Shown piece by piece: positions 1-34,870 of a DNA stretch of 35,162 nt; within the stretch, counting starts at the first letter, position 1, and each line of letters starts with the position of its first letter. This DNA is from a virus. The position numbers were made by a program, and so were the translations under genes. The stretch lies in IMG/VR virus record IMGVR_UViG_3300002835_000575, positions 1 to 35,162 of that record. One strand, given 5' to 3'. The notes beneath the pieces were generated by a model. It was not told the DNA's origin, did not search any database, and saw only the letters and a program-made list of their open reading frames with translations.

Positions 1-2
1 AG

Positions 3-128
3 ATGTCAGACCACGCACTTAACGACCGCCTCGCGGCTCTGCTGCGCGACAGCGGGGTCAGCCGAGAGGCCGTGAGTACTGGTGAGAGTGTGGATGCGGA
101 GGTTGTAAGCGTGTTGCGCAAAGACTAA
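3..128 (+). CDS. Short ORF or 3' end of a gene cut by the window edge
   Basis: An open frame of 41 residues runs from an ATG two bases into the window to a TAA. It is mostly helical and acidic (starts MSDHALNDRL, ends VVSVLRKD). Because the window begins here, the ATG may be an internal methionine of a longer protein. Its place just before the large terminase is where P22-like phages carry the small terminase subunit, so it could be the tail of that protein. That is a synteny guess only; no terminase motif is visible. The hairpin terminator about 80 bases downstream fits it being the last gene of a transcript. Confidence 0.45.
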   Translation: MSDHALNDRLAALLRDSGVSREAVSTGESVDAEVVSVLRKD

Positions 129-208
129 CGCAATACAATAAGACTCATGGTTACAAGTGGTGTTGTCTCAATGCATCACAAGCAAACTAGCATTAATAAA
201 TCACAGGT

Positions 209-239
209 GGGGCTAACCCCCCGAGGGGGTGGCCCCTTT
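209..239 (+). terminator. Strong GC hairpin, probable intrinsic terminator
   Basis: Arms 209-213 plus 216-221 pair with 225-230 plus 232-236, with a 3-base loop and a small internal mismatch, followed by TTT. A second small hairpin (241-254, CGGAA/TTCCG, loop AAAG) follows at once. It lies between the first ORF and the terminase gene and probably ends transcripts coming from upstream. The T-run is short, so termination efficiency is uncertain. The rest of the 129-335 gap shows no gene and no clear promoter. Confidence 0.55.
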
Positions 240-335
240 GCGGAAAAAGTTCCGGCTATACGCGAATGTCGCTCTTTTCGGGGTTTTTTCTTCACAGCGG
301 CAAGCCGCGTGTGATTGACTGCGGGCACGCATCAA

Positions 336-1772
336 ATGGACGATTTCGAGTTGAAGCTGGAGTTAGCCGCGGTTCTCGAGGAGAAGCTGCGCCGTCAGCG
401 CGAGCGCAAGCTGCTCGCGTACTACCCTGAGAGTGGGCCGTTGCGGCGGTCTGCGTACCCCAAGCACATGGCCTTCTTTGAGGCAGGGCCACGGTACCGC
501 GAGCGGCTTATGATGGCTGCAAACCGCGTTGGGAAGACGGAGGGCATTGGGGGCTACGAGCTGACGTTGCACCTGACGGGGCGGTATCCGGAGTGGTGGC
601 GTGGGCGGCGGTTTGCGAAGCCGGTTTCGGCGTGGGCGGCTGGGGACACGGGCAAGACGACGCGTGACATCTTGCAGCAGAAGCTGCTTGGGCCGCCTGG
701 GTATTACGGCACGGGGCTTATTCCGAAGGAGGACATCTTGCGGACGCCGGCGAAGGCAGGGATAGCGGATGCGGTTGAGATGATAGTGGTGCGGCACGAG
801 AGCGGTGGAGAGAGCAGGGTGGTGCTCAAGAGTTACGACCAGCGTCGCGAGAGTTTTCAGGGCACGGAGCAGGACATTATCTGGTTGGACGAGGAGCCAC
901 CGTTGGACATTTACACGGAGTGTTTGCTGCGGACGATGACGAACGACGGGATGGTGATGTTGACGTTTACGCCGCTGCTGGGGATGAGTGCGACGGTGAT
1001 GGCGTTTTTGAAGGACGGTGAGGTACGGGAGCGGCAGGAGGGGACGAAGTACGTTGGGATGGCGACGTGGGATGACGTGCCGCATTTGTCTCAGCGGCAG
1101 AAGGACGAGTTGTGGGCGAGCATCCCCCCTTTTCAGAGGGATGCGCGGAGCAAGGGTGTGCCGCAGTTGGGGGCGGGGGCGATTTATCCGGTGGCGGAGA
1201 GTGACGTGGTGGTGGAGCCGTTTGAAGTGCCGGAGCATTGGCCGCGGTGTTTTGGGATGGATGTGGGGTGGAACCGGACGGCGGCGGTGTTTGCGGCGGT
1301 GGACATGGAGAGTGACGTGGTGTATGTGTTTAGCGAGCACTACATGGGGGCTGCGGAGCCTGCGGTGCATGCGGAGGCGGTGCGGGCGAGGGGCGGGATG
1401 CCTGGGGTGATTGATCCGGCTTCGAGGGGGAGGACGCAGATTGACGGGCAGCAGTTGTTTAACCGGTACAAGGGGTTGGGGTTGGACATTACGGTGGCGA
1501 ACAACGCGGTTGAGACGGGGTTGTACGATGTGTGGCAGCGGATGAGCAGTGGGCGGTTGAAGGTGTTTCGGAGTTGTGTGAACTGGGTGAACGAGTTCCG
1601 GTTGTACCGGAGGGATGACAAGGGCAGGGTGGTGAAGGAGAACGACCATTTGATGGATGCGACGCGGTACATGGTGGTGAGTGGGGTGCAGCGTGCGAAG
1701 AACCCGTTGAATCGGATGAAGAGAGCGTTTGTGGAGATAATGCCGTCGAAAAACTTCTTCTCACGGAAGTAA
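336..1772 (+). CDS. terL: Terminase large subunit (packaging ATPase-nuclease)
   Basis: This 478-residue motor protein should translocate DNA into the procapsid and cut the concatemer. The N-terminal ATPase has a Walker A AANRVGKT at residues 61-68 and a Walker B ending WLDEE at 183-187. The C-terminal RNase H-like nuclease shows the expected acidic residues: D309 in FGMDVGW, D360 in GVIDPASRG, and D441 in DHLMDATRYM. I chose the ATG at 336; an in-frame TTG at 315 would add seven residues, and neither has a clear Shine-Dalgarno. The gene is followed 23 bases later by the portal, the normal packaging order. Third codon positions are very rich in G, unlike the later structural genes. Confidence 0.95.
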   Translation: MDDFELKLELAAVLEEKLRRQRERKLLAYYPESGPLRRSAYPKHMAFFEAGPRYRERLMMAANRVGKTEGIGGYELTLHLTGRYPEWWRGRRFAKPVSAWAAGDTGKTTRDILQQKLLGPPGYYGTGLIPKEDILRTPAKAGIADAVEMIVVRHESGGESRVVLKSYDQRRESFQGTEQDIIWLDEEPPLDIYTECLLRTMTNDGMVMLTFTPLLGMSATVMAFLKDGEVRERQEGTKYVGMATWDDVPHLSQRQKDELWASIPPFQRDARSKGVPQLGAGAIYPVAESDVVVEPFEVPEHWPRCFGMDVGWNRTAAVFAAVDMESDVVYVFSEHYMGAAEPAVHAEAVRARGGMPGVIDPASRGRTQIDGQQLFNRYKGLGLDITVANNAVETGLYDVWQRMSSGRLKVFRSCVNWVNEFRLYRRDDKGRVVKENDHLMDATRYMVVSGVQRAKNPLNRMKRAFVEIMPSKNFFSRK

Positions 1773-1795
1773 AATGAGATACGTTTAGATTTGTC

Positions 1796-3853
1796 ATGAC
1801 GAAAGCGCAGATACATGCGGAGGCGTTGCGGGAGTTTGATAACATTGAGACGGTGCTTCGGCAGGAGCGGTTGCAGTGTTTGAATGACCGGCGGTTTTGC
1901 GATATAGCAGGGGCGCAGTGGGAGGGGCCGCTTCAGGATCAGTTTGAGAATCGGCCACGGTTTGAGGTGAACAAGGTGAACTTGGCGGTGATGCGGGTGA
2001 TTAACGAGTACCGCAACAACCGGATGACGGTGGATTTTCTGCCGAAGGAGGGAGCTGAGTACGACAAGTTAGCGGACACGTGCAACGGTTTGTATCGGGC
2101 TGGGGAGCAGGACTCGTGTGCGCAGGAGGCGTATGACAATGCCTTTGAGGAGGCGGTTAAGGGCGGTTTTGGGGCGTTTCGGTTACGGAACGAGTATGTG
2201 GATGATGAGGACGAGGATGACGACACGCAGCAGATTTACATTGAGCCGATATTTGATGCGGACACGAGTGTGTACTTTGATTTGAACGCGAAGCGTCAGG
2301 ACAAGAGTGACGCGAAGCGGTGCTTTGTTTTGACGGCGATGACGCCGGACGCGTACAAGGAGGAGTGGGGGGATGACCCGCAGACGTGGCCGAAGTCGGT
2401 GACGCGGGTGATGTTTGATTGGTACACGCCGGAGGTGGTGTATGTGGCGGAGTACTACCGTGTGGAGGAGGTAAGCGACACGGTTGTGACGGTGGAGACG
2501 TTGACCGGTAAGGAGGAGAAGTTGCGGGAGGGGGATGAGGGGTTTGAGGAGGCGCTTAAGGAGTTAAAGGCGTTGGGTGGGAAGGTGGCAAAGCGCAAGA
2601 AGGTAAAGACGCGCAAGGTGCACAAGTACATTTTGTCTGGGGGAAAGATTCTGGAGGATTGCGGGTACATTGCGGGGAAGAACATTCCGATTGTGCCGGT
2701 GTACGGGAAGCGTTGGTTTGTGGATAATGTGGAGCGGTGCATGGGGATTGTGCGGCTTGCGAAAGACGCGCAGCGGCTTAAGAACATGCAGCTCTCGAAG
2801 CTGGCGGAGATTTCGGCTTTGTCCTCGGTTGAGAAACCGATTTTTGTTCCTGAGCAAGTGGCGGGACATCAGGTGATGTGGAGTGAGGACAACATCAAGA
2901 ACTACCCGTACTTGCTGGTTAACACGATTACGGATGCGAGCGGGAATGCGGCGCCTGCGGGGCCGGTAGCCTACACGAAGTCCTCGCAGATACCGCCGGC
3001 GATGGCTGCGCTTTTGCAGGTGACGGATGCGGACATGAACGAGCTGCTTGGGAACGCGCAAGCGGCGGAGCGGATGGTGAGCCATGTGACGGGCAAGGCG
3101 ATTGACATGATCCAGCAGAGCCTGGGGATGCAGTCGTACGTGTACATCTCGAACATGGGCAAGGCGATTAAGCGTGCTGGCGAGATTTGGCTCTCGATGG
3201 CGAAGGACGTGTTTGTTGAGCCCAAGCGGAAGATGAAGGTGATTGATGAGGCAGGGAGCATGGACTCGATTGAGCTTCTTACACCGGTTATCGATGAGGA
3301 GAGCGGCGACATTGAGTACGAGAACGATCTATCGGACGCGCAGTTTGACGTATCGGTGGACATTGGGCCTACGGCCCCGAGCAAGCGGGCAGCGACGGTG
3401 CAAGCGATTACGGGGATGATGGCAATCACGCAGGATCCGGAGATGCTGAAGGTGCTCTCATCGATGGCGATGCTGAACATGGAAGGGGAAGGCATCTCGG
3501 ATGTGCGCTCGTACTTCCGCAAGCAGCTTGTGACGATGGGCGTGCTTAAACCCACCGAGCAAGAGGCCCAGGAGCTTCAGCAAGCCATGGCAAACCAGCA
3601 GCCAAGCCCAGAGGCTATCTACCTGCAGGCAGAGGCGCAGAAGGCCAATGCGCTAGCCACAAAGGCGCAGGCTGACACGGTGCTGACACTGGCGAAGGCA
3701 GAGGAGACGCGGGCTAAGACGGAGGACACGCTGGCGAAGACGGCGGGAACGAGTCAGGAGAACGCGATGAAGTTGGCAGACCGGATTGAGAGCGAGGTTG
3801 CGCGGATTATGCCGCAGCAGGCAGCGCCGGTAATGCCGATGCAGAATTTCTAG
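1796..3853 (+). CDS. Portal protein, P22 gp1-like
   Basis: At 685 residues this is close to P22 gp1 (725). The N-terminal segment around NRPRFEVNKVNLAVMRVINE, followed by RMTVDFLP, is typical of the P22-type portal family. The last ~90 residues are a long Ala/Lys/Gln-rich helix with repeated KAxAxT-like units, resembling the helical barrel that extends from the P22 portal. An acidic run (about residues 136-143) lies in the N-terminal third. The protein should form the dodecameric ring at the capsid vertex through which DNA passes, contacting the terminase and the gp4-like adaptor. The G-rich third-position bias of the terminase gene continues through roughly the first half and fades toward the 3' end. 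Confidence 0.93.
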   Translation: MTKAQIHAEALREFDNIETVLRQERLQCLNDRRFCDIAGAQWEGPLQDQFENRPRFEVNKVNLAVMRVINEYRNNRMTVDFLPKEGAEYDKLADTCNGLYRAGEQDSCAQEAYDNAFEEAVKGGFGAFRLRNEYVDDEDEDDDTQQIYIEPIFDADTSVYFDLNAKRQDKSDAKRCFVLTAMTPDAYKEEWGDDPQTWPKSVTRVMFDWYTPEVVYVAEYYRVEEVSDTVVTVETLTGKEEKLREGDEGFEEALKELKALGGKVAKRKKVKTRKVHKYILSGGKILEDCGYIAGKNIPIVPVYGKRWFVDNVERCMGIVRLAKDAQRLKNMQLSKLAEISALSSVEKPIFVPEQVAGHQVMWSEDNIKNYPYLLVNTITDASGNAAPAGPVAYTKSSQIPPAMAALLQVTDADMNELLGNAQAAERMVSHVTGKAIDMIQQSLGMQSYVYISNMGKAIKRAGEIWLSMAKDVFVEPKRKMKVIDEAGSMDSIELLTPVIDEESGDIEYENDLSDAQFDVSVDIGPTAPSKRAATVQAITGMMAITQDPEMLKVLSSMAMLNMEGEGISDVRSYFRKQLVTMGVLKPTEQEAQELQQAMANQQPSPEAIYLQAEAQKANALATKAQADTVLTLAKAEETRAKTEDTLAKTAGTSQENAMKLADRIESEVARIMPQQAAPVMPMQNF

Positions 3854-3887
3854 CTTGCGAGTAGCAGGCTAAGTTAGTAAAGAAAAC

Positions 3888-4775
3888 ATGAGTGAGATAA
3901 CTCAGGCAGTAGAGGCTGAAGAGCCTTTGGAAGCCGTTGAGGAGATCGAGCCAAGTGCAGAGGCTGAAGTTGGGAACGCTGGCGGTGAGCCGGTGGAGAA
4001 GACGCAGGAGCCTGCGGTTGGCGATCAGAATCAAGAGGCGGAAGAAGTCGAAGTCAGCATCGGTGATTCGCCATCACAACAAGAAGAGAGCAGCAAGGAA
4101 GCACCTACTTGGGTGAAGGACTTGCGTAAGCAATATCGGGAGCTGCAACGTGAGAAGCGCCAGCTTGAGGAACGGGTAAGGACAATGTCCACTGAGACCA
4201 ATCCGGTGGCACAGCTTGGGCCTAAGCCGTCGCTTGAGGGCTGCGACTACGATTCGGCTAAGTACGAGGAATCGCTTGAAGCATGGTTCGTCCGCAAGCG
4301 TGCGGTTGACGCAGAAGCTGAGAAGGCTGAACGCGCAAAGCAGGCTGAAGCGGAGGAATGGCAGAAGAAGCTAGCAAACTACGCTGAGACAAAGACGAAG
4401 CTGAAGGTTGCTGACTACTCTGAGGCTGAAGCAGCGGTTCAAGACGTGCTTAATGTCACCCAGCAGGGAATCCTGCTGCAAGGTTCAGAGAACCCTGCGT
4501 TATTGGTTTACGCCCTAGGTCGGAATCCTGCAAAGGCGAAAGAACTCGCGAGTATCAATGACCCCGTGAAGTTCGCGTTTGCGGTTTCAAAAATCGAAAC
4601 TCAACTCAAAGTGACACCTAAAAAGACTGCACCGCCGCCGGAGCGGACAATATCTGGCACAGCAAAATCATCAGGCGGCTCGGATGAGCAGCTTGACCGG
4701 TTGCGAGAACAAGCCGCTCGCACCGGCGACTTCAGCAAAGTGTTGGCTTACAAAAATCAGTTAAAAAACAAATAA
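3888..4775 (+). CDS. Scaffolding protein
   Basis: This is a 295-residue, highly charged protein located between portal and coat, exactly where P22 encodes scaffold gp8 (303 residues). Residues 1-75 are acidic and likely disordered, with many E, A and V. The middle (about 80-190) is predicted coiled coil rich in E/K/A, with segments such as REKRQLEERVRTM. The C-terminus is basic and ends KVLAYKNQLKNK, comparable to the basic coat-binding C-terminus of P22 scaffold. It should direct procapsid assembly and leave before maturation. Assignment rests on position, length and composition, because scaffolds diverge fast. Confidence 0.8.
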   Translation: MSEITQAVEAEEPLEAVEEIEPSAEAEVGNAGGEPVEKTQEPAVGDQNQEAEEVEVSIGDSPSQQEESSKEAPTWVKDLRKQYRELQREKRQLEERVRTMSTETNPVAQLGPKPSLEGCDYDSAKYEESLEAWFVRKRAVDAEAEKAERAKQAEAEEWQKKLANYAETKTKLKVADYSEAEAAVQDVLNVTQQGILLQGSENPALLVYALGRNPAKAKELASINDPVKFAFAVSKIETQLKVTPKKTAPPPERTISGTAKSSGGSDEQLDRLREQAARTGDFSKVLAYKNQLKNK

Positions 4776-7544: not shown

Positions 7545-7841
7545 ATGACACTTCCATTCAATCCATCTTACGGCTCAGGCCAGACGCAAACCGCAACTGC
7601 AACTTCCACGCAGTACTCTATCATCGCTGGCACTCGCAGCATTTGTGTGACCAACACTGGAGACACTTATCCAGTGTACGTTCGCATCGGGCAGGGCACT
7701 GTGAATGCAACATCCGCTGACTACATTGTTATGCCTCTTAGCCAAGTCTCCCTTGGCAAGTTTGAGGATGACAATGTGATTGCATTGATTGCTCCGACTG
7801 GAAACACGACGGTGAACTTCATCTGCGGCGCAGGACTGTGA
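7545..7841 (+). CDS. Hypothetical small beta-rich virion protein
   Basis: The protein is 98 residues, almost entirely beta-strand and turn in character, with Thr/Ser/Val-rich segments (TATSTQYSII, SICVTNTGDTYPVYVRIGQG). Such small beta-sandwich proteins next to tail genes are often decoration or fibre-linked proteins, but no family is recognised with certainty. It is one base from the preceding stop. Its own stop overlaps a GTG start of the next small gene (GTGA), so the three genes are probably translated together. Confidence 0.7.
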   Translation: MTLPFNPSYGSGQTQTATATSTQYSIIAGTRSICVTNTGDTYPVYVRIGQGTVNATSADYIVMPLSQVSLGKFEDDNVIALIAPTGNTTVNFICGAGL

Positions 7842-27752: not shown

Positions 27753-30257
27753 ATGCAACAACATACAGACCGTGCCGGTCTGGTTGACCACAACCAGATC
27801 GACCAACACCTCTCTCTCGTCTTTGGTGACGTACAGTGGCAGCAGAACCAGTTCATCTGCATTCGCGGCATCGGCGAAAAGGGTACCGAGCAGGAGGGCG
27901 TCTTCCGCGAAGACATCTTTGTTCAGCCAGCTGTCGAAGGCTTCGACGTTGTCCACGAAGCAGCCGAGCGATGGGCGCAGTACAACGTGGCTACGTTTGT
28001 CGTCCCAGGCATCCTGAACGACACGCGTGCAACCGCAGCGAACGTGAAGGAGATGACGACGCTTGTGGCTGACATCGACACCGGCGACACCAACCAGAAA
28101 CTTGAGTGGCTGCGCTCGGAGATTGGCGAGCCGTCCCTTGTTGTGGCTAGCGGCGGAACCACCGAGGAGTCCACGCCAAAGCGCCACGTCTGGTACCGGC
28201 TCGACGAGACGCTCCCAACTGAGGACGCCATCAAGCTGCGCCATGCTCTGGCGCGGGTATCTGGCGGGGATCCGTCGATGGGCGTTGGAGTGGATTCAAA
28301 CCCGTACGGACGAGCGCACCAACCGGTGCGTCTTGCTGGCACAGTCCACGCAAAAAGCAATCGCGCGACCGTCGCGAAAATCGAGTCTGCATCGAACTTC
28401 GTGTACACGCCTCGTGACTTGTGTAGGCGGATGACATCGTTCCTTCCTCCTGAGCACACGCCACTTGCGCTCTTCCATAAGGAGAGCGGCAACGTGTCCT
28501 CAAATGCAGAGACCTCATTTCAGAAGGACGTGTACGAAGGGGCTACGGGGGCGGAAACACGTTGGGACGCGTTCAACTCGGTAGCTGGATCGAACCTTGG
28601 AATGGTGCGCCGAGGGATGCTGACCTTGGAGCAAGCCAAGGAGCAAACCCGCGGCTGGATGCTCCAGCGCATGCACCCAGCATGGAATGATGCTCGTTTT
28701 GAGGCTGAATGGCGCGGGCTCATGAACGCTGACACGCGCAAGCATGGAAGGATGGACGCACCGGTGTCTCGGCACGAGTTCCCGAAGCAGTCCGAAGGCA
28801 GTTGGATGGACGAGTGGCAGGCACACCGGTGGGTTGTTGAGCCAAAGCCAGAGCACACTTACCTTGTGGAATCGCTCATCATAAAGGGCGAGCCGCATCT
28901 CTTCATTGCTGAGGGCGGTGCAGGAAAGACCGGTCTTATCGCTGACTTGGCTCTTAAGGTGGCAGCCTTCCCTGAGAGCGGCGAGAGCATGGACTGGTGT
29001 GGTCAGCGGCTTCTCAATGGTGGAACCGCGGTGCTATTGCTCTGCGAGGACAGCCAAACTGAGATGCATCGGCGCTTCCTTGAGATTGACCACAAGGGTC
29101 TCATCAAGCGGGCTGGGCGCAGGCTCATTGTGATACCGCTCTCAGCGGTCGGTGGCGCATTCCCGCTTGTTGAGCGTGATCCCAAGTCTGGAACTCCGGT
29201 GTCATCCTCAAAGTGGCTGTCGGTGCTGGATGAGCTCAAGAAGATTGATGACCTTGTTATGGTCGGCATCGATACCTTCAACGCGGTCTCGCACGGGGAT
29301 GAGAACAACGCTCTTGCTGTGGCCGAGATGATGCGTGAGGCAGGGCGCGTGTGCGGCGAGCTTAAGGCTGCGCTGCTCATTACCCACCACATCCGAAAGC
29401 CTGGCAACGAGCCGATACGCACGCTCAAGGACATGAAAAACAGCATCCGCGGCAGCTCCGCGATACCGTCCTACTTCCGTATCAACATCGGGTTCTGGCA
29501 CGCACCGGACTACGAGCGTCGGATGAAAGGCATGAGCCTCATCCCGAAAGTTGACTGCTGCTACCGGTTCGGCGTGCTCAAGGCCAACATCAATGGGCTC
29601 ATGCGCGGCGAGCGTACGCTGCTTCGGGATGGGTTCGGGCTCCTGAGCGACGTAACCAAGCTGGACGTGTACAGCGCCATCAACGTGAGCGAGCGTCTTG
29701 CGTGGCTTGTGCTCGCGGTGCGTGAGGCAGCAAGCTCGCTGCACCCGTACACGCTTGGAAACAAGAACGCAGCCAACGGGCTCTACAAACGCCGCTCCGA
29801 GCTTCCACCGGTCTTGCGGTCTGTCGGCGCAACCGAGTTTGGCCACCTTATCGAGGAAGCCCTCCAGAAGGAGTTGCTCGTTGCGTGCGCCGTCAAAGGC
29901 AGTAAGTCGAAGAGCTACCTCGACGTTCCTGGGGGCGTGCTCGCAACCGATGAGACCGGTGCGGTCATTCAGGCTGGTGCCTACATCACGATGCCAGAGT
30001 GGGCCAACTACACGTTCGACCCAGAGACCGGCACCTGCGTCGGTAAGCACGGCAAGAAGATGTGGGGTGCTGCATTCTCGGAGAAGAGCCTCACCGAAGC
30101 CATGGCGGAAGAGGCTTTGCCTCCGGCTGAGGAGCCGCTTCCTGAGCCGGAAGAGTTGGGCGCGTCCCTGCGAGAGCGACCAGCGCCCTTTCGATTCGAT
30201 CCAACCGAGCGCATAGGTCTTCCGAAAGCGTTGAGAGATTTGCCTGAAGATGAGTGA
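27753..30257 (+). CDS. Primase-helicase (AEP/RepB-like primase plus RecA-fold helicase)
   Basis: The 834 residues carry two enzymes. The N-terminal AEP-type primase shows DID (D107, D109 in TTLVADIDTGD), a VWYR segment with H145 (PKRHVWYRL), and D181 followed by PVRLAGTVH. The second half is a RepA/DnaB-like helicase: Walker A EGGAGKTG (387-394), Walker B MVGIDTFN (D507), and LLITHHIRKPG near 543. The C-terminal ~60 residues are Pro/Glu-rich. This gene should prime and unwind at the replication fork; no DNA polymerase gene is visible, so host polymerase, or the AEP domain itself, must extend. Its 3' end is overlapped by an antisense frame (30091-30414). Confidence 0.85.
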   Translation: MQQHTDRAGLVDHNQIDQHLSLVFGDVQWQQNQFICIRGIGEKGTEQEGVFREDIFVQPAVEGFDVVHEAAERWAQYNVATFVVPGILNDTRATAANVKEMTTLVADIDTGDTNQKLEWLRSEIGEPSLVVASGGTTEESTPKRHVWYRLDETLPTEDAIKLRHALARVSGGDPSMGVGVDSNPYGRAHQPVRLAGTVHAKSNRATVAKIESASNFVYTPRDLCRRMTSFLPPEHTPLALFHKESGNVSSNAETSFQKDVYEGATGAETRWDAFNSVAGSNLGMVRRGMLTLEQAKEQTRGWMLQRMHPAWNDARFEAEWRGLMNADTRKHGRMDAPVSRHEFPKQSEGSWMDEWQAHRWVVEPKPEHTYLVESLIIKGEPHLFIAEGGAGKTGLIADLALKVAAFPESGESMDWCGQRLLNGGTAVLLLCEDSQTEMHRRFLEIDHKGLIKRAGRRLIVIPLSAVGGAFPLVERDPKSGTPVSSSKWLSVLDELKKIDDLVMVGIDTFNAVSHGDENNALAVAEMMREAGRVCGELKAALLITHHIRKPGNEPIRTLKDMKNSIRGSSAIPSYFRINIGFWHAPDYERRMKGMSLIPKVDCCYRFGVLKANINGLMRGERTLLRDGFGLLSDVTKLDVYSAINVSERLAWLVLAVREAASSLHPYTLGNKNAANGLYKRRSELPPVLRSVGATEFGHLIEEALQKELLVACAVKGSKSKSYLDVPGGVLATDETGAVIQAGAYITMPEWANYTFDPETGTCVGKHGKKMWGAAFSEKSLTEAMAEEALPPAEEPLPEPEELGASLRERPAPFRFDPTERIGLPKALRDLPEDE

Positions 30258-30414
30258 CAGCTTCAGCCTTGGCCGCATACTGACGCTTGAGGGCGTCGTA
30301 CGCACTCACCGCGGTCTTCAAATCCGTCTCCAAAAGGGCGATTCTCTCGTCTTTTTGGAGGGCGTTTTCAGCGCGTTTTTGACGCCATTTTCGGTGGTAA
30401 TCAGAGGTTTTCAT
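30091..30414 (-). CDS. Candidate minus-strand coiled-coil protein overlapping the primase gene
   Basis: A 107-residue minus-strand frame starts at ATG 30414, in otherwise non-coding DNA, and runs 167 bases into the 3' end of the primase-helicase gene. The sequence reads as natural protein: a basic start (MKTSDYHRKWRQKRAENALQ), a heptad-like coil at about 14-72 (ALLETDLKTAVSAYDALKRQ, LSTLSEDLCARLDRIERAL), a Pro-rich linker and the end PLPPWLR. The overlapped part of the + gene is its Pro/Glu-rich tail. It starts at the edge of the repeat region and would be transcribed away from it. Expression is unproven. Confidence 0.5.
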   Translation of the reverse strand: MKTSDYHRKWRQKRAENALQKDERIALLETDLKTAVSAYDALKRQYAAKAEAVTHLQANLSTLSEDLCARLDRIERALVALAGTRPTLPAQEAAPQPEAKPLPPWLR

Positions 30415-30439
30415 AAGTCGTTAATGTTCAACACAATCC

Positions 30440-30566
30440 AAAGGTCGCGCAAAGGTCGCGCAAAAGAGTTTCGCGACTTTCAGTGTTTTTCGCAATCCTT
30501 AAATTCCAGAGTAAAAACCTTGTTTTCCAAAGAAAGTTTCGCGACCTTTACGACCGTCGCGCGACC
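30440..30566. repeat. Iteron-like GGTCGCG repeats
   Basis: Two perfect tandem copies of the 11-mer AAAGGTCGCGC lie at 30440-30450 and 30451-30461. An inverted imperfect copy follows at 30471-30480 (TCGCGACTTT), then an inverted copy at 30540-30549 (CGCGACCTTT), and a palindrome GTCGCGCGAC at 30556-30565. The layout resembles iterons or operators bound by a dimeric protein, beside A-rich stretches. The primase gene upstream makes an origin plausible. Confidence 0.65.
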
Positions 30567-30645
30567 AAAAAAAAATGGGGGTGGCGTCGAGGACGCGTTG
30601 TAAGTCGTTGAAAATGAGTAAAACTACAAAATTTTTGCACGCCCT

Positions 30646-30765
30646 GAGGACACGAGTCCCTCATAGGAGAGTAGCGTACTCCGCTTACGCTCCGTACTCA
30701 GCCTCCTCTTCTCTCTCAGCAATCCGCTTACGCTCGCTGAGAGGAGGAGTCTGCCTGCTTCGCAG
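30646..30765. repeat. Cluster of four stem-loops with a repeated 12-mer
   Basis: Four hairpins follow one another: 30646-30662 (GAGGAC/GTCCCTC), 30669-30699 (GAGT-AGCGTA paired with TACGCT...ACTC), 30703-30749 (CTCCTC...CTCTCAGC paired with GCTGAGAG-GAGGAG, 14 pairs) and 30755-30765 (CTGC/GCAG). The 12-mer CCGCTTACGCTC occurs in the second and third, at 30681-30692 and 30724-30735. They may act in replication, as a structured RNA or as a mobile palindromic element. Confidence 0.55.
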
Positions 30766-30871
30766 TCCACTGCCACCTATGCCAAAGTTTGGTGCCTCTT
30801 TTTCTTTTTGTCGTCTTCCCATTCACGGCATGAAGGGCGCCGCCGATTTTTTCGGTATACCGTTTTGATCC

Positions 30872-31312
30872 ATGAGAACGACCATTGCATTGTTTGTAGC
30901 CGGAACACCCAAGCCACAGCCTAGACCGCGTTTTGTTGGCGGGAGAGCGGTATCCACCCTCGACGCGAAGACAAATGCGTGGAAGGGGCAAATACGCGCG
31001 ATTGTGACCCATGCCCGAATGACGAACGAGAGTATGTTTGCTCGGATGGGTGTTGGAACACCGATTGAGCTCAACTTGGTGTTCAGCTTTGAGAGCGAGC
31101 GTCACACCGGTTTGCACACGCACAAGCCGGACGCGGACAACTTGGCCAAGCTGGTGATGGATGTGTTGGTGGATGCGAAGGCGTGGGAGGGGGATGACTC
31201 GCGAGTGGCGGTGTTGTACTGCCGCAAGCAGTGGTGTGCTCCTGGGGAGGGGGGAGTAGCGATTGAGATTACCGCGACGGTAGCCGACGAAGAAAAACCG
31301 GATTGGCTGTAA
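30872..31312 (+). CDS. rusA: RusA-like Holliday junction resolvase
   Basis: The 146-residue protein matches RusA. An N-terminal PKPQPRPRFVGG is followed by the catalytic block KPDADNLAKLVMDVLVD and then EGDDSRV. D87, D89, K93 and D108 have the same spacing as D70, D72, K76 and D91 of E. coli RusA. It should form a homodimer that cuts four-way junctions produced by recombination and replication, clearing branched DNA before packaging. It lies just downstream of the candidate origin, and a palindrome ends ten bases before the start. A second helix-turn-helix gene follows. Confidence 0.9.
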   Translation: MRTTIALFVAGTPKPQPRPRFVGGRAVSTLDAKTNAWKGQIRAIVTHARMTNESMFARMGVGTPIELNLVFSFESERHTGLHTHKPDADNLAKLVMDVLVDAKAWEGDDSRVAVLYCRKQWCAPGEGGVAIEITATVADEEKPDWL

Positions 31313-32586: not shown

Positions 32587-32945
32587 ACATCGATACAGAA
32601 GAAATCAAACGCATCGTCGAGCGCATGAAGGCCCGCGGTCAAATCACCGTGACGCCTGAGCGCAGAATCGTGAAGGAAGCCCGTCCAACGCACGGCGACG
32701 CTGCTTGCCGAAGCTGCGGGACGGTATTCACGCGCAAGGCCGCAACAGCCATGTACTGCAAGCGTGAGTGCTACCTCTTTGAGCAGAAACGCGAGCGTGC
32801 GCTGGCAAAGAGCGCGGTCACACCCAGCGTGTGCCCCATCTGCAGCACGCAGTTCGTGCCCAAGACGCTCAACAACCAGACGTACTGCGGGCCGGACTGC
32901 AACCGTGAAGCCCAGAGAGTGCGGCGCAGCAAAATCAAAGCGTGA
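32583..32945 (+). CDS. Twin zinc-finger protein (first copy)
   Basis: The protein has 120 residues. The first ~22 (MNIDTEEIKRIVERMKARGQ) form a helix, followed by two zinc modules, CRSCG...YCKREC and CPICS...YCGPDC, each a C-x2-C-x(n)-YC-x3-C. The C-terminus is basic (RVRRSKIKA). A closely similar protein is encoded at 34077-34439, on the other side of the methyltransferase. The start overlaps the previous stop (ATGA), and its TGA overlaps the ATG that opens the second frame (TGATG). It probably binds DNA or RNA; no enzymatic motif is seen. Confidence 0.75.
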   Translation: MNIDTEEIKRIVERMKARGQITVTPERRIVKEARPTHGDAACRSCGTVFTRKAATAMYCKRECYLFEQKRERALAKSAVTPSVCPICSTQFVPKTLNNQTYCGPDCNREAQRVRRSKIKA

Positions 32946-34060
32946 TGTGGATACTGCCCAAACAACTCATATCAGCCTTTGCTCCGGTTATGGGGGCATC
33001 GACCTTGGACTTAGACGCTGCATCCCAAGCCTGCGCACGGTCGCTTATGCGGAGATCGAAGCGTTCGCAATCGAGCTCTTACTTGCGAGAATGGAAGGCG
33101 GGCAACTTGATGCGGCTCCAATCTGGCCTGATTTGCGATCCTTCCCGTGGGAGAGCTTTCGAGACCGCGTGGACGTCCTCTCTGGCGGTTATCCCTGTCA
33201 GCCATTCTCAGCCGCAGGGAAGCGACTTGGAGCAGACGACGAGCGACACCTCTGGCCAGCTATCGCAGCTGGCATTCGGATTCTGCGACCAAGAATCTGT
33301 TTCTTTGAAAACGTCGAGGGACACATCAGCCTTGGGCTACGGGAAGTCGTCGATGAGTTGGGAGCAATGGGTTACCGAGCGACGTGGGGAATATTCTCGG
33401 CGAGCGAAGTCGGTGCGCCACACCAACGCAAGCGAGTGTTCATCTTGGCCTACCGCGAAGGCGCGGGATTGGAAGGACACGACCGGTTGTTCGCTGGATG
33501 CGGTCAATCCAGATGGCACGTATCGGAACAGGCGCGACCGGCTTGTTGGAGCGATAGCGGCGGAGATGTCTGGCCCTCCCGCCCAGGAGAGCCCCAGCAC
33601 GGATGGGAACCACCGCGAGTTGTGGCCGACACCGGACGCGACGGGGGTGGGCGACGGAGTGCCGTGGGAGGAGTTCAAGCGGCGGATGATGGAGCGCAGG
33701 GCGAGGGTGAAGGAAGCAGTTGCAGCGGGCGAGACGAAGCAGGGCAGTGGCAGGAGTGCGAACTTGTGTGCAGCGGTGCAGAACCCGCAATGGGCGACAC
33801 CTCAGGCTCGGGACAACCGCAGTGGGGGAGCGGAACGATGGGACGACCCGAACCGGAGTCGCAACTTAAACGACCAGATTGCCACGGTTACGAAACAAAA
33901 CGCAAAACTCAACCCGAGGTGGGTGGAGACGCTGATGGGATTGCCGGTGGGTTGGGTTATGCCGAGCTGTGCATCTCCAGTGACAATCGAACCGACGAAC
34001 TCAGGTTGCTCGGGAACGGAGTCGTCCCAGCTACCGCCGCAAGAGCTTTTGCCGTTCTGA
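32945..34060 (+). CDS. Second long frame within the methyltransferase gene, dual-coding candidate
   Basis: A 371-codon frame opens at ATG 32945, coupled to the preceding TGA, two bases before the methyltransferase GTG. It reads as protein: TERRGEYSRRAKSVRHTNAS then SSWPTAKARDWKD, a LWPTPDATG repeat (W227), a QWATPQARDN repeat (W283) and LNPRWVETLMGLPVGW (322-337). Proteins with repeated WPTPxARD and a terminal LNPxWVExLMGxPxGW exist in phage and bacterial sets, often labelled methylase-like. Each repeat lies on the same bases as a methyltransferase element. It could be a separate protein, or a product joined to motifs I-VIII by frameshifting. Expression is unknown. Confidence 0.55.
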   Translation: MWILPKQLISAFAPVMGASTLDLDAASQACARSLMRRSKRSQSSSYLREWKAGNLMRLQSGLICDPSRGRAFETAWTSSLAVIPVSHSQPQGSDLEQTTSDTSGQLSQLAFGFCDQESVSLKTSRDTSALGYGKSSMSWEQWVTERRGEYSRRAKSVRHTNASECSSWPTAKARDWKDTTGCSLDAVNPDGTYRNRRDRLVGAIAAEMSGPPAQESPSTDGNHRELWPTPDATGVGDGVPWEEFKRRMMERRARVKEAVAAGETKQGSGRSANLCAAVQNPQWATPQARDNRSGGAERWDDPNRSRNLNDQIATVTKQNAKLNPRWVETLMGLPVGWVMPSCASPVTIEPTNSGCSGTESSQLPPQELLPF

Positions 34061-34080
34061 TGGAGGAGTTGCTTTCATGA
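32947..34080 (+). CDS. DNA cytosine-5 methyltransferase
   Basis: The 377-residue product starts at GTG 32947; no ATG precedes motif I in this frame. Conserved motifs: I (ISLCSGYGGIDLGL, ~9-22), IV (SGGYPCQPFSAAG, catalytic C84), VI (FENVEGH, E121), VIII (HQRKRVFILAY, ~159-169) and X (LGNGVVPATA, from L355). The stretch between VIII and X is Gly/Ser-rich with ADT/GDT-x-x-x-G repeats (V226-ADTG..., M282-GDTSGSG). It should methylate cytosine in phage DNA, perhaps against restriction; no cognate endonuclease is evident. The gene is overlapped almost fully by another frame (32945-34060). Zinc-finger paralogs lie on both sides. Confidence 0.9.
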   Translation: MDTAQTTHISLCSGYGGIDLGLRRCIPSLRTVAYAEIEAFAIELLLARMEGGQLDAAPIWPDLRSFPWESFRDRVDVLSGGYPCQPFSAAGKRLGADDERHLWPAIAAGIRILRPRICFFENVEGHISLGLREVVDELGAMGYRATWGIFSASEVGAPHQRKRVFILAYREGAGLEGHDRLFAGCGQSRWHVSEQARPACWSDSGGDVWPSRPGEPQHGWEPPRVVADTGRDGGGRRSAVGGVQAADDGAQGEGEGSSCSGRDEAGQWQECELVCSGAEPAMGDTSGSGQPQWGSGTMGRPEPESQLKRPDCHGYETKRKTQPEVGGDADGIAGGLGYAELCISSDNRTDELRLLGNGVVPATAARAFAVLMEELLS

Positions 34081-34596: not shown

Positions 34597-34646
34597 ACCG
34601 GTTCGCACCGGTCACCCGCTACCGGTCACCGGTCACCTGCGGTCAC
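34597..34646. repeat. Cluster of ACCGGTCACC direct repeats
   Basis: ACCGGTCACC occurs at 34607-34616, 34621-34630 and 34628-34637 (overlapping by three bases), flanked by partial copies ACCGGT (34597-34602) and GGTCAC (34641-34646). An inverted GGTGACC lies at 34737-34743. Closely spaced repeats outside genes suggest a protein-binding array, for example a second origin, a packaging signal or an operator. Confidence 0.55.
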
Positions 34647-34813
34647 TGCCAGCTCCGCTCCGCAACCGTCAAGAAATGCTTGTGAGTTGGGGTGAGGGCG
34701 CTCAGCATGCGGCTCTACTCGCGGATGCGCGAATGGGGTGACCGTCAGAGCCAGCACAGGGGCAATGGCGGTTGCCCCGACGCACGCGGGGGCGCGGTAC
34801 GGATCAGGACACG

Positions 34814-34848
34814 AAAAAGGCCGAGGCACCACAAGGGGCAGCTCGGCC
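34814..34848 (-). terminator. Intrinsic terminator of the minus-strand gene
   Basis: Read on the minus strand, a perfect 7-bp stem (GGCCGAG/CTCGGCC, + strand positions 34842-34848 and 34819-34825) with a 16-base loop is followed by TTTTT (34818-34814). It lies 22 bases past the stop of the minus-strand gene and supports that gene being transcribed. Confidence 0.75.
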
Positions 34849-34870
34849 AGAGAGGGGGAGGGGAGGGCGG

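Follow-up and report, generated by a model that had tools for sequence, protein, structure and literature searches.

Iteron-like repeats and a folded element behind a fused primase-helicase gene mark a candidate replication origin in a tailed phage

We analyzed a viral contig of 35,162 bases, read as one strand (IMG/VR record IMGVR_UViG_3300002835_000575; referred to here as the window), in which a cluster of short repeats lies behind the gene for a fused primase-helicase. Replication of this phage probably starts in the region from about 30414 to 30660, perhaps reaching 30781, and the protein encoded just upstream probably recognizes this origin. We favor this reading because differently spelled repeat clusters share this position in related phages and plasmid-borne relatives. 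The original prediction had placed a candidate origin at 30440 to 30575; the candidate region now spans about 30414 to 30781 and is thus larger.

The contig has the gene content of a tailed phage. Its structural and lysis part encodes terminase, portal, scaffold, major head, head closure, and tail proteins and an endolysin, and next come genes for a Sak4-like annealing protein, an SF2 helicase, a Cas4-like exonuclease, the primase-helicase, RusA, and a DNA methyltransferase. No terminal repeats were found on the 35,162-base contig. The repeat-bearing gap is bounded, as had been stated, by the stop of the primase-helicase gene (30257) and the start (30872) of the Holliday junction resolvase gene rusA (30872 to 31312, plus strand; PF05866, 3.5e-14; phrog_140, 5.5e-22). 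Its left part is covered by a minus-strand open reading frame (ORF; 30091 to 30414) for a coiled-coil-like protein of 107 aa, for which PHROG and Pfam scans gave no family match.

The candidate initiator (27753 to 30257, plus strand; 834 aa; PHROG 239 primase/helicase, Pfam AAA_25) is an archaeo-eukaryotic-type primase (AEP) fused to an RSF1010 RepA-like ring helicase in one protein. The AEP residues D107, D109, and H145 were invariant in 13 relatives, and the Walker A motif reads AEGGAGKT. With a full-length model of middling confidence (pLDDT, 64; pTM, 0.35), Foldseek matched the AEP domain of S-2L PrimPol (6zp9; TM, 0.83 by target) and the RSF1010 RepA structures 1nlf and 1g8y. The C-terminal region (residues 628 to 760; 29634 to 30032, plus strand), modeled alone with AlphaFold2 (model m0381aa862247), folded into a helix-helix-helix-hairpin arrangement of moderate confidence (mean pLDDT, 66). 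This predicted domain, which had structural matches to winged-helix proteins (Z up to 6.6) and no Foldseek match at an E value of ≤0.001, is a probable winged helix. None of the scanned neighboring proteins was annotated as a RepC.

Upstream of the iterons lies a partial copy (TAAGTCGTTAATG; 30414 to 30426, plus strand) of an element resembling an integration host factor (IHF) site. Iterons 1 and 2 (30440 to 30450 and 30451 to 30461; plus strand) are the tandem perfect copies of AAAGGTCGCGC that had been described. Two inverted copies had been described as well. That at 30540 to 30549 (CGCGACCTTT), part of iteron 4 (TTTCGCGACCTTT; 30537 to 30549, minus strand), is exact, but that at 30471 to 30480 (TCGCGACTTT), part of iteron 3 (TTTCGCGACTTT; 30469 to 30480, minus strand), counts as degenerate because one G is missing (AAAG-TCGCGA). 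The direct copies thus lie to the left and the inverted copies to the right of an A+T-rich spacer (30481 to 30536; 66% A+T versus 46% for the genome, though not the top A+T-rich stretch of the contig), and such clustered short direct and inverted repeats around an A+T-rich segment are among the features expected of an iteron origin. The spacer carries the conserved CAGAGTA within the core TCCAGAGTAAAAA (30505 to 30517, plus strand), the equivalents of which are TACAGAGTA in clade A and AACAGAGTAAA in clade B (see below); the core string CAGAGTAAA occurs once in the window.

To the right of iteron 4, the previously noted palindrome GTCGCGCGAC (30556 to 30565) is present as a single occurrence in the contig and holds iteron 5 (GCGCGACC; feature at 30556 to 30566, minus strand). 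It is followed by an A9-TGGGGGT element (30567 to 30582, plus strand) that has counterparts in phage P8625 and in most clade B members; its A9 tract (30567 to 30575), also noted before, is the sole run of at least eight A or T in the window, and A9-TGGGGG is the sole homopolymer-plus-G4 string of its kind in the contig. Beyond it lie the repeat GAGGACGCG (30589 to 30597, plus strand), a second IHF-like element, TAAGTCGTTGAAA (30601 to 30613, plus strand), and, just 5' of a folded element, the repeat GAGGACACG (30646 to 30654, plus strand). The repeats at 30589 and 30646 (GAGGACRCG) are of the type found in the sister clade B and had been overlooked. The IHF consensus is WATCAANNNNTTR, which the IHF-like elements match with about one mismatch; to judge from this likeness, IHF may bind at the TAAGTnnTTGAAA-like elements.

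The clustering is exceptional for this contig. All three copies of AAAGGTCGCG in the 35,162 bases fall within 110 bp (30440 to 30549), and a 10-mer with three copies in 120 bp arose in none of 200 dinucleotide-shuffled genomes and in none of 5,000 shuffles of the intergenic stretch. Near-copies of any 9-mer per 250 bp reached their contig maximum here (five of GTCGCGCAA), and GTYGCGCAA, with up to one mismatch, has five sites versus 0.4 expected. GC skew, which had been proposed as a check, lends the origin no support because neither total nor third-position skew has a minimum near 30.4 kb; nearly all genes of this genome are on one strand.

The second proposed check, conservation of the repeats in relatives, gave a clear result. 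We compiled 57 viral loci encoding relatives of the primase-helicase, many of which are close IMG/VR contigs and hence not independent samples; prophage relatives of the primase were sought in bacterial genome contigs, and none was confirmed. Several lineages have arrays where the primase-helicase gene ends. The origin had been expected to fall if the skew minimum lay elsewhere and the repeats were not conserved, and this combination does not apply, because repeat conservation is clear.

Clade A (about 70% identity) is laid out like the window and has counterparts of the minus-strand ORF (30 to 47% identity by tblastn). Clade B (about 50%) lacks this ORF, and its primase genes end inside or beside GAGGACACG arrays, which extend across the gene's 3' end and have hardly any copies elsewhere in the respective contig. 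Both clades share the order of repeats, CAGAGTA core, inverted repeats, TAAGTnnTTGAAA, one more repeat, folded element, and rusA, and most virus relatives keep the order of CAGAGTA, homopolymer plus TGGGGGT, and IHF-like TAAGTnnTTGAAA. A homopolymer with G4-7 between the core and TAAGT is common to the window and most of clade B and is lacking in the other clade A members. The orientation of the IHF-like element is unchanged in most members of clades A and B.

Repeat spelling differs between the clades. The GTYGCGCAA family has 3 to 9 sites in clade A, compared with 0.4 to 1.0 expected across the window and this clade, and none or nearly none in clade B, which instead has 7 to 13 GAGGACACG-like sites versus 0.1 expected. 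The winged-helix region is near-identical to that of the window in clade A (84% for L010) and 64% identical in clade B; the window and clade A have iterons of one family, and clade B has another. Apart from the window itself, most clade A members have repeats so divergent that the 9-mer scan does not single them out. Two contigs (L087, 3903 to 4037; L091, 6432 to 6566) have a doubled array, with two CAACAGAGTAAA cores in opposite orientation and iterons around each. No such array was seen in the flanks read for clades C and D, which are more distant members of the same primase family. One clade C virus (L042, 7630 to 7750) has direct and inverted GATATGCGCG repeats one small gene 3' of its primase gene, which were not found in its relative L039. 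A dense repeat in L008 (2551 to 2950; up to 13 near-copies of GCAGCGAGG in 250 bp) is unrelated to the origin candidate.

Nine distant loci from annotated collections were picked by protein homology alone. In five of them (Rhizobium phage RHph_Y3_1, AcaML1, Verrucomicrobia phage P8625, plasmid pSU2, and an Azospirillum replicon), the best or tied-best repeat interval of the locus lay at most 150 bp from the stop of the primase-helicase gene. Two Wolbachia WO loci and Eleftheria were weak (four copies), and the Methylobacterium pM44602 locus had no repeat array. The clusters account for 8 of the 12 genomic copies of GGGAACG in RHph_Y3_1 (inside 189 bp), 5 of 6 repeat copies genome-wide in AcaML1, and 7 of 10 in P8625. 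The AcaML1 array likewise consists of direct copies, a spacer, and inverted copies; TAAGTnnTTGAAA-like elements, in the orientation seen in the window, recur in RHph_Y3_1 and the Azospirillum replicon; and the P8625 array includes AAAAAATGGGGT. The TATCGGCA array of P8625 (L150, 7784 to 7888) is at the right end of the deposited genome, and an extra copy at base 22 suggests that the array runs across the chosen record ends. Repeat sequence and downstream genes vary with lineage, and the position of the array at the primase-helicase 3' end is kept in clade B and these five loci. Because the genes behind these arrays were not recognizable as rusA where tested, we conclude that the array travels with the primase-helicase gene and not with rusA.

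The folded element (30662 to 30781, plus strand) has four stems. The closing stem P1 pairs 30662-30667 with 30776-30781 and encloses hairpin 1 (30669 to 30692, plus strand), hairpin 2 (30703 to 30749, plus strand; 6 bp, a 4-nt bulge on the 5' side, 8 bp, and a 15-nt loop with CCGCTTACGCT), and hairpin 3 (CTGC-TTC-GCAG; 30755 to 30765, plus strand; found by sequence inspection), which is outside the minimum-energy fold of the window and less constrained in clade B. The window folds with a z score of -3.3, and 20 relatives fold with scores of -3 to -6. RNA energy alone cannot discriminate the strand, or RNA from DNA, because antisense z scores were equally strong in these 21 sequences. Across 14 clade B sequences, 94.6% of cells pair, and 13 pairs changed on both sides, compared with 4.0 in shuffles (0 of 500 as high) and 2 to 5 in slid controls. 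A covariance model built from clade B only recovered clade A (E values, 1e-6 to 0.02) and, in the window, hairpin 2 (E value, 0.0015), with no match in clades C and D or the outgroups. A large stem-loop downstream of the initiator gene is thus kept in structure while its sequence diverges (a counterpart is at 7621 to 7749 of L036). Searches with exact patterns found one copy per viral contig, nearly all in contigs already in the primase search, and none in genome contigs; a search of the window with Rfam 15 covariance models gave no match up to an E value of 1.

The folded element may belong to the origin, in the manner of the pRN1 stem-loop or the RSF1010 ssi hairpins (PMC4234260), or it may serve rusA as a leader RNA. 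The array could be the origin and the folded element a leader RNA or terminator-like structure in its own right; in this case the initiator might control rusA as well. The parts are separable, in that outgroup arrays lack the folded element, and clade B repeats abut it; however, the constant order and spacing in clades A and B also suit one unit. We consider this division, which overlaps with our preferred explanation, quite possible without leaning toward it. More tentatively, and at lower likelihood, the four-stem element could be a new class of structured nucleic acid that acts as a single-strand initiation site, folding the strand and positioning the fused primase once the helicase opens the origin; this would be an all-in-one form of RSF1010-like initiation in a phage.

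It is unlikely that replication starts elsewhere, with the repeats acting as operators and the folded element as a 5' leader in the transcription of rusA and its downstream genes. Such a role would suit the presence of rusA downstream in both virus clades, the TATATA-like stretch and clade-type repeats immediately 5' of the folded element, and the occurrence of this element once per contig and its lack in clades C and D and the outgroups. However, arrays lie behind the primase-helicase in RHph_Y3_1, pSU2, P8625, and the Azospirillum replicon, where no rusA was recognized in the loci tested; the TATATA stretch forms the 5' side of stem P1; a sigma-70 promoter scan found nothing near the array and one weak match at 30254; and five dispersed sites around an A+T-rich core exceed the needs of an operator. 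These points make it less probable, though still conceivable, that part of the region serves rusA as an operator or leader.

The original prediction had named divergent operators as its alternative, and we regard it as highly improbable that the repeats serve a repressor of the minus-strand gene (30091 to 30414), because clade B has the repeats but not the ORF. The start of this gene does adjoin the array, and the gene is kept in clade A; in clade B, however, the primase stop runs into the array, and distant relatives too have the array directly behind this stop. A phage attachment site (attP) with arm-type repeats would account for inverted repeats flanking a core, but it is scarcely credible given that no integrase was found among the scanned proteins, that core and repeats differ between relatives, and that L087 and L091 have two oppositely oriented cores.

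The origin reading has precedents in layout. In SaPI Rep and SCCmec Cch2, the C-terminal domain has been shown to bind iterons that directly follow the gene of the protein itself (PMC7581432). The phage resembles these systems in its short iterons directly behind an initiator helicase gene, and we infer the same mode of binding for the phage initiator. Those systems differ in having a helicase of another superfamily and a primase that is separate or of another type, whereas here an AEP is fused to an SF4 RepA-like helicase. As in the SaPI/P4-like layout, the array is at the primase-helicase 3' end, a position kept in five of nine distant loci and not in clades C and D. Phage P4 alpha is described as combining primase, helicase, and winged helix in one protein with repeats at its origin (PMC4234260); its primase is of the Toprim type, however, and the likeness is one of domain layout.

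RSF1010 oriV with RepA, RepB', and RepC is similar in its RepA-type helicase, AEP-type primase, iterons, and origin-side hairpins, and RepB' primes at ssi hairpins (PMC4234260). Both enzyme types were matched here by Foldseek, in one fused chain rather than the two proteins of RSF1010. RSF1010 uses three proteins with RepC as a separate iteron binder, whereas primase, helicase, and probable winged helix form one chain in the phage, and the RSF1010 repeat sequences are unrelated to those of this phage. The pRN1 origin, an essential element, lies directly downstream of the gene for its AEP-helicase-winged helix protein and has a stem-loop conserved in structure and poorly in sequence (PMC4234260). 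In contrast to the phage, pRN1 has a single long stem-loop, no iterons, and an SF3 helicase, and specific binding could not be shown (PMC4234260); the candidate phage origin is not classed as pRN1 type because iterons are present.

We propose that the primase-helicase, probably via its winged helix, would bind the repeats on both sides of the spacer. The helicase could load once the DNA is bent at the IHF-like site and the A+T-rich spacer has melted. The first primer would then come from the primase domain, made on the single strand so exposed and perhaps at the core or next to the hairpins. A start at the conserved core is conceivable because NrS-1 polymerase, also an AEP, starts at a defined template motif (PMC8718748). 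Replication might finally be handed over to the recombination enzymes, i.e., the SF2 helicase, Cas4-like exonuclease, Sak4-like annealing protein, and RusA.

The layout as such is already known; neither a fused AEP-RepA initiator that has an iteron origin of its own nor the conserved folded element appears to have been described in the literature searched, and we found no paper on the origin of these phages in the open literature. The array tracks the gene while its repeats vary by lineage, which would amount to a common origin design for primase-RepA fusions across phages and plasmid-borne relatives, a modular system in which initiator-iteron specificity becomes testable, and a rule for locating origins in uncultured phages. 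The folded element would add a structured feature outside Rfam with strong covariation, the role of which as primer site or leader RNA is directly testable.

Elsewhere in the contig, a noncoding stretch near the right end (34609 to 34750) has several CGGTCAC copies. This GGTCAC-repeat region was considered as an alternative origin and rejected, as the conserved part (34789 to 34868) looks like a terminator-like hairpin for the minus-strand gene. Positions 1 to 4500, with the terminase and portal genes, have a strong G-over-C skew (third-position skew, 0.54 to 0.57), and an antisense ORF of 428 aa without a family match lies within them (363 to 1649). Two plus-strand ORFs in different frames (32764 to 34080 and 32942 to 34060) both match DNA methyltransferase PHROGs (7.5e-60 and 2.8e-19, respectively). 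The second reaches up to 80% protein identity in relatives, yet has no Pfam match, and the two are possibly overlapping genes.
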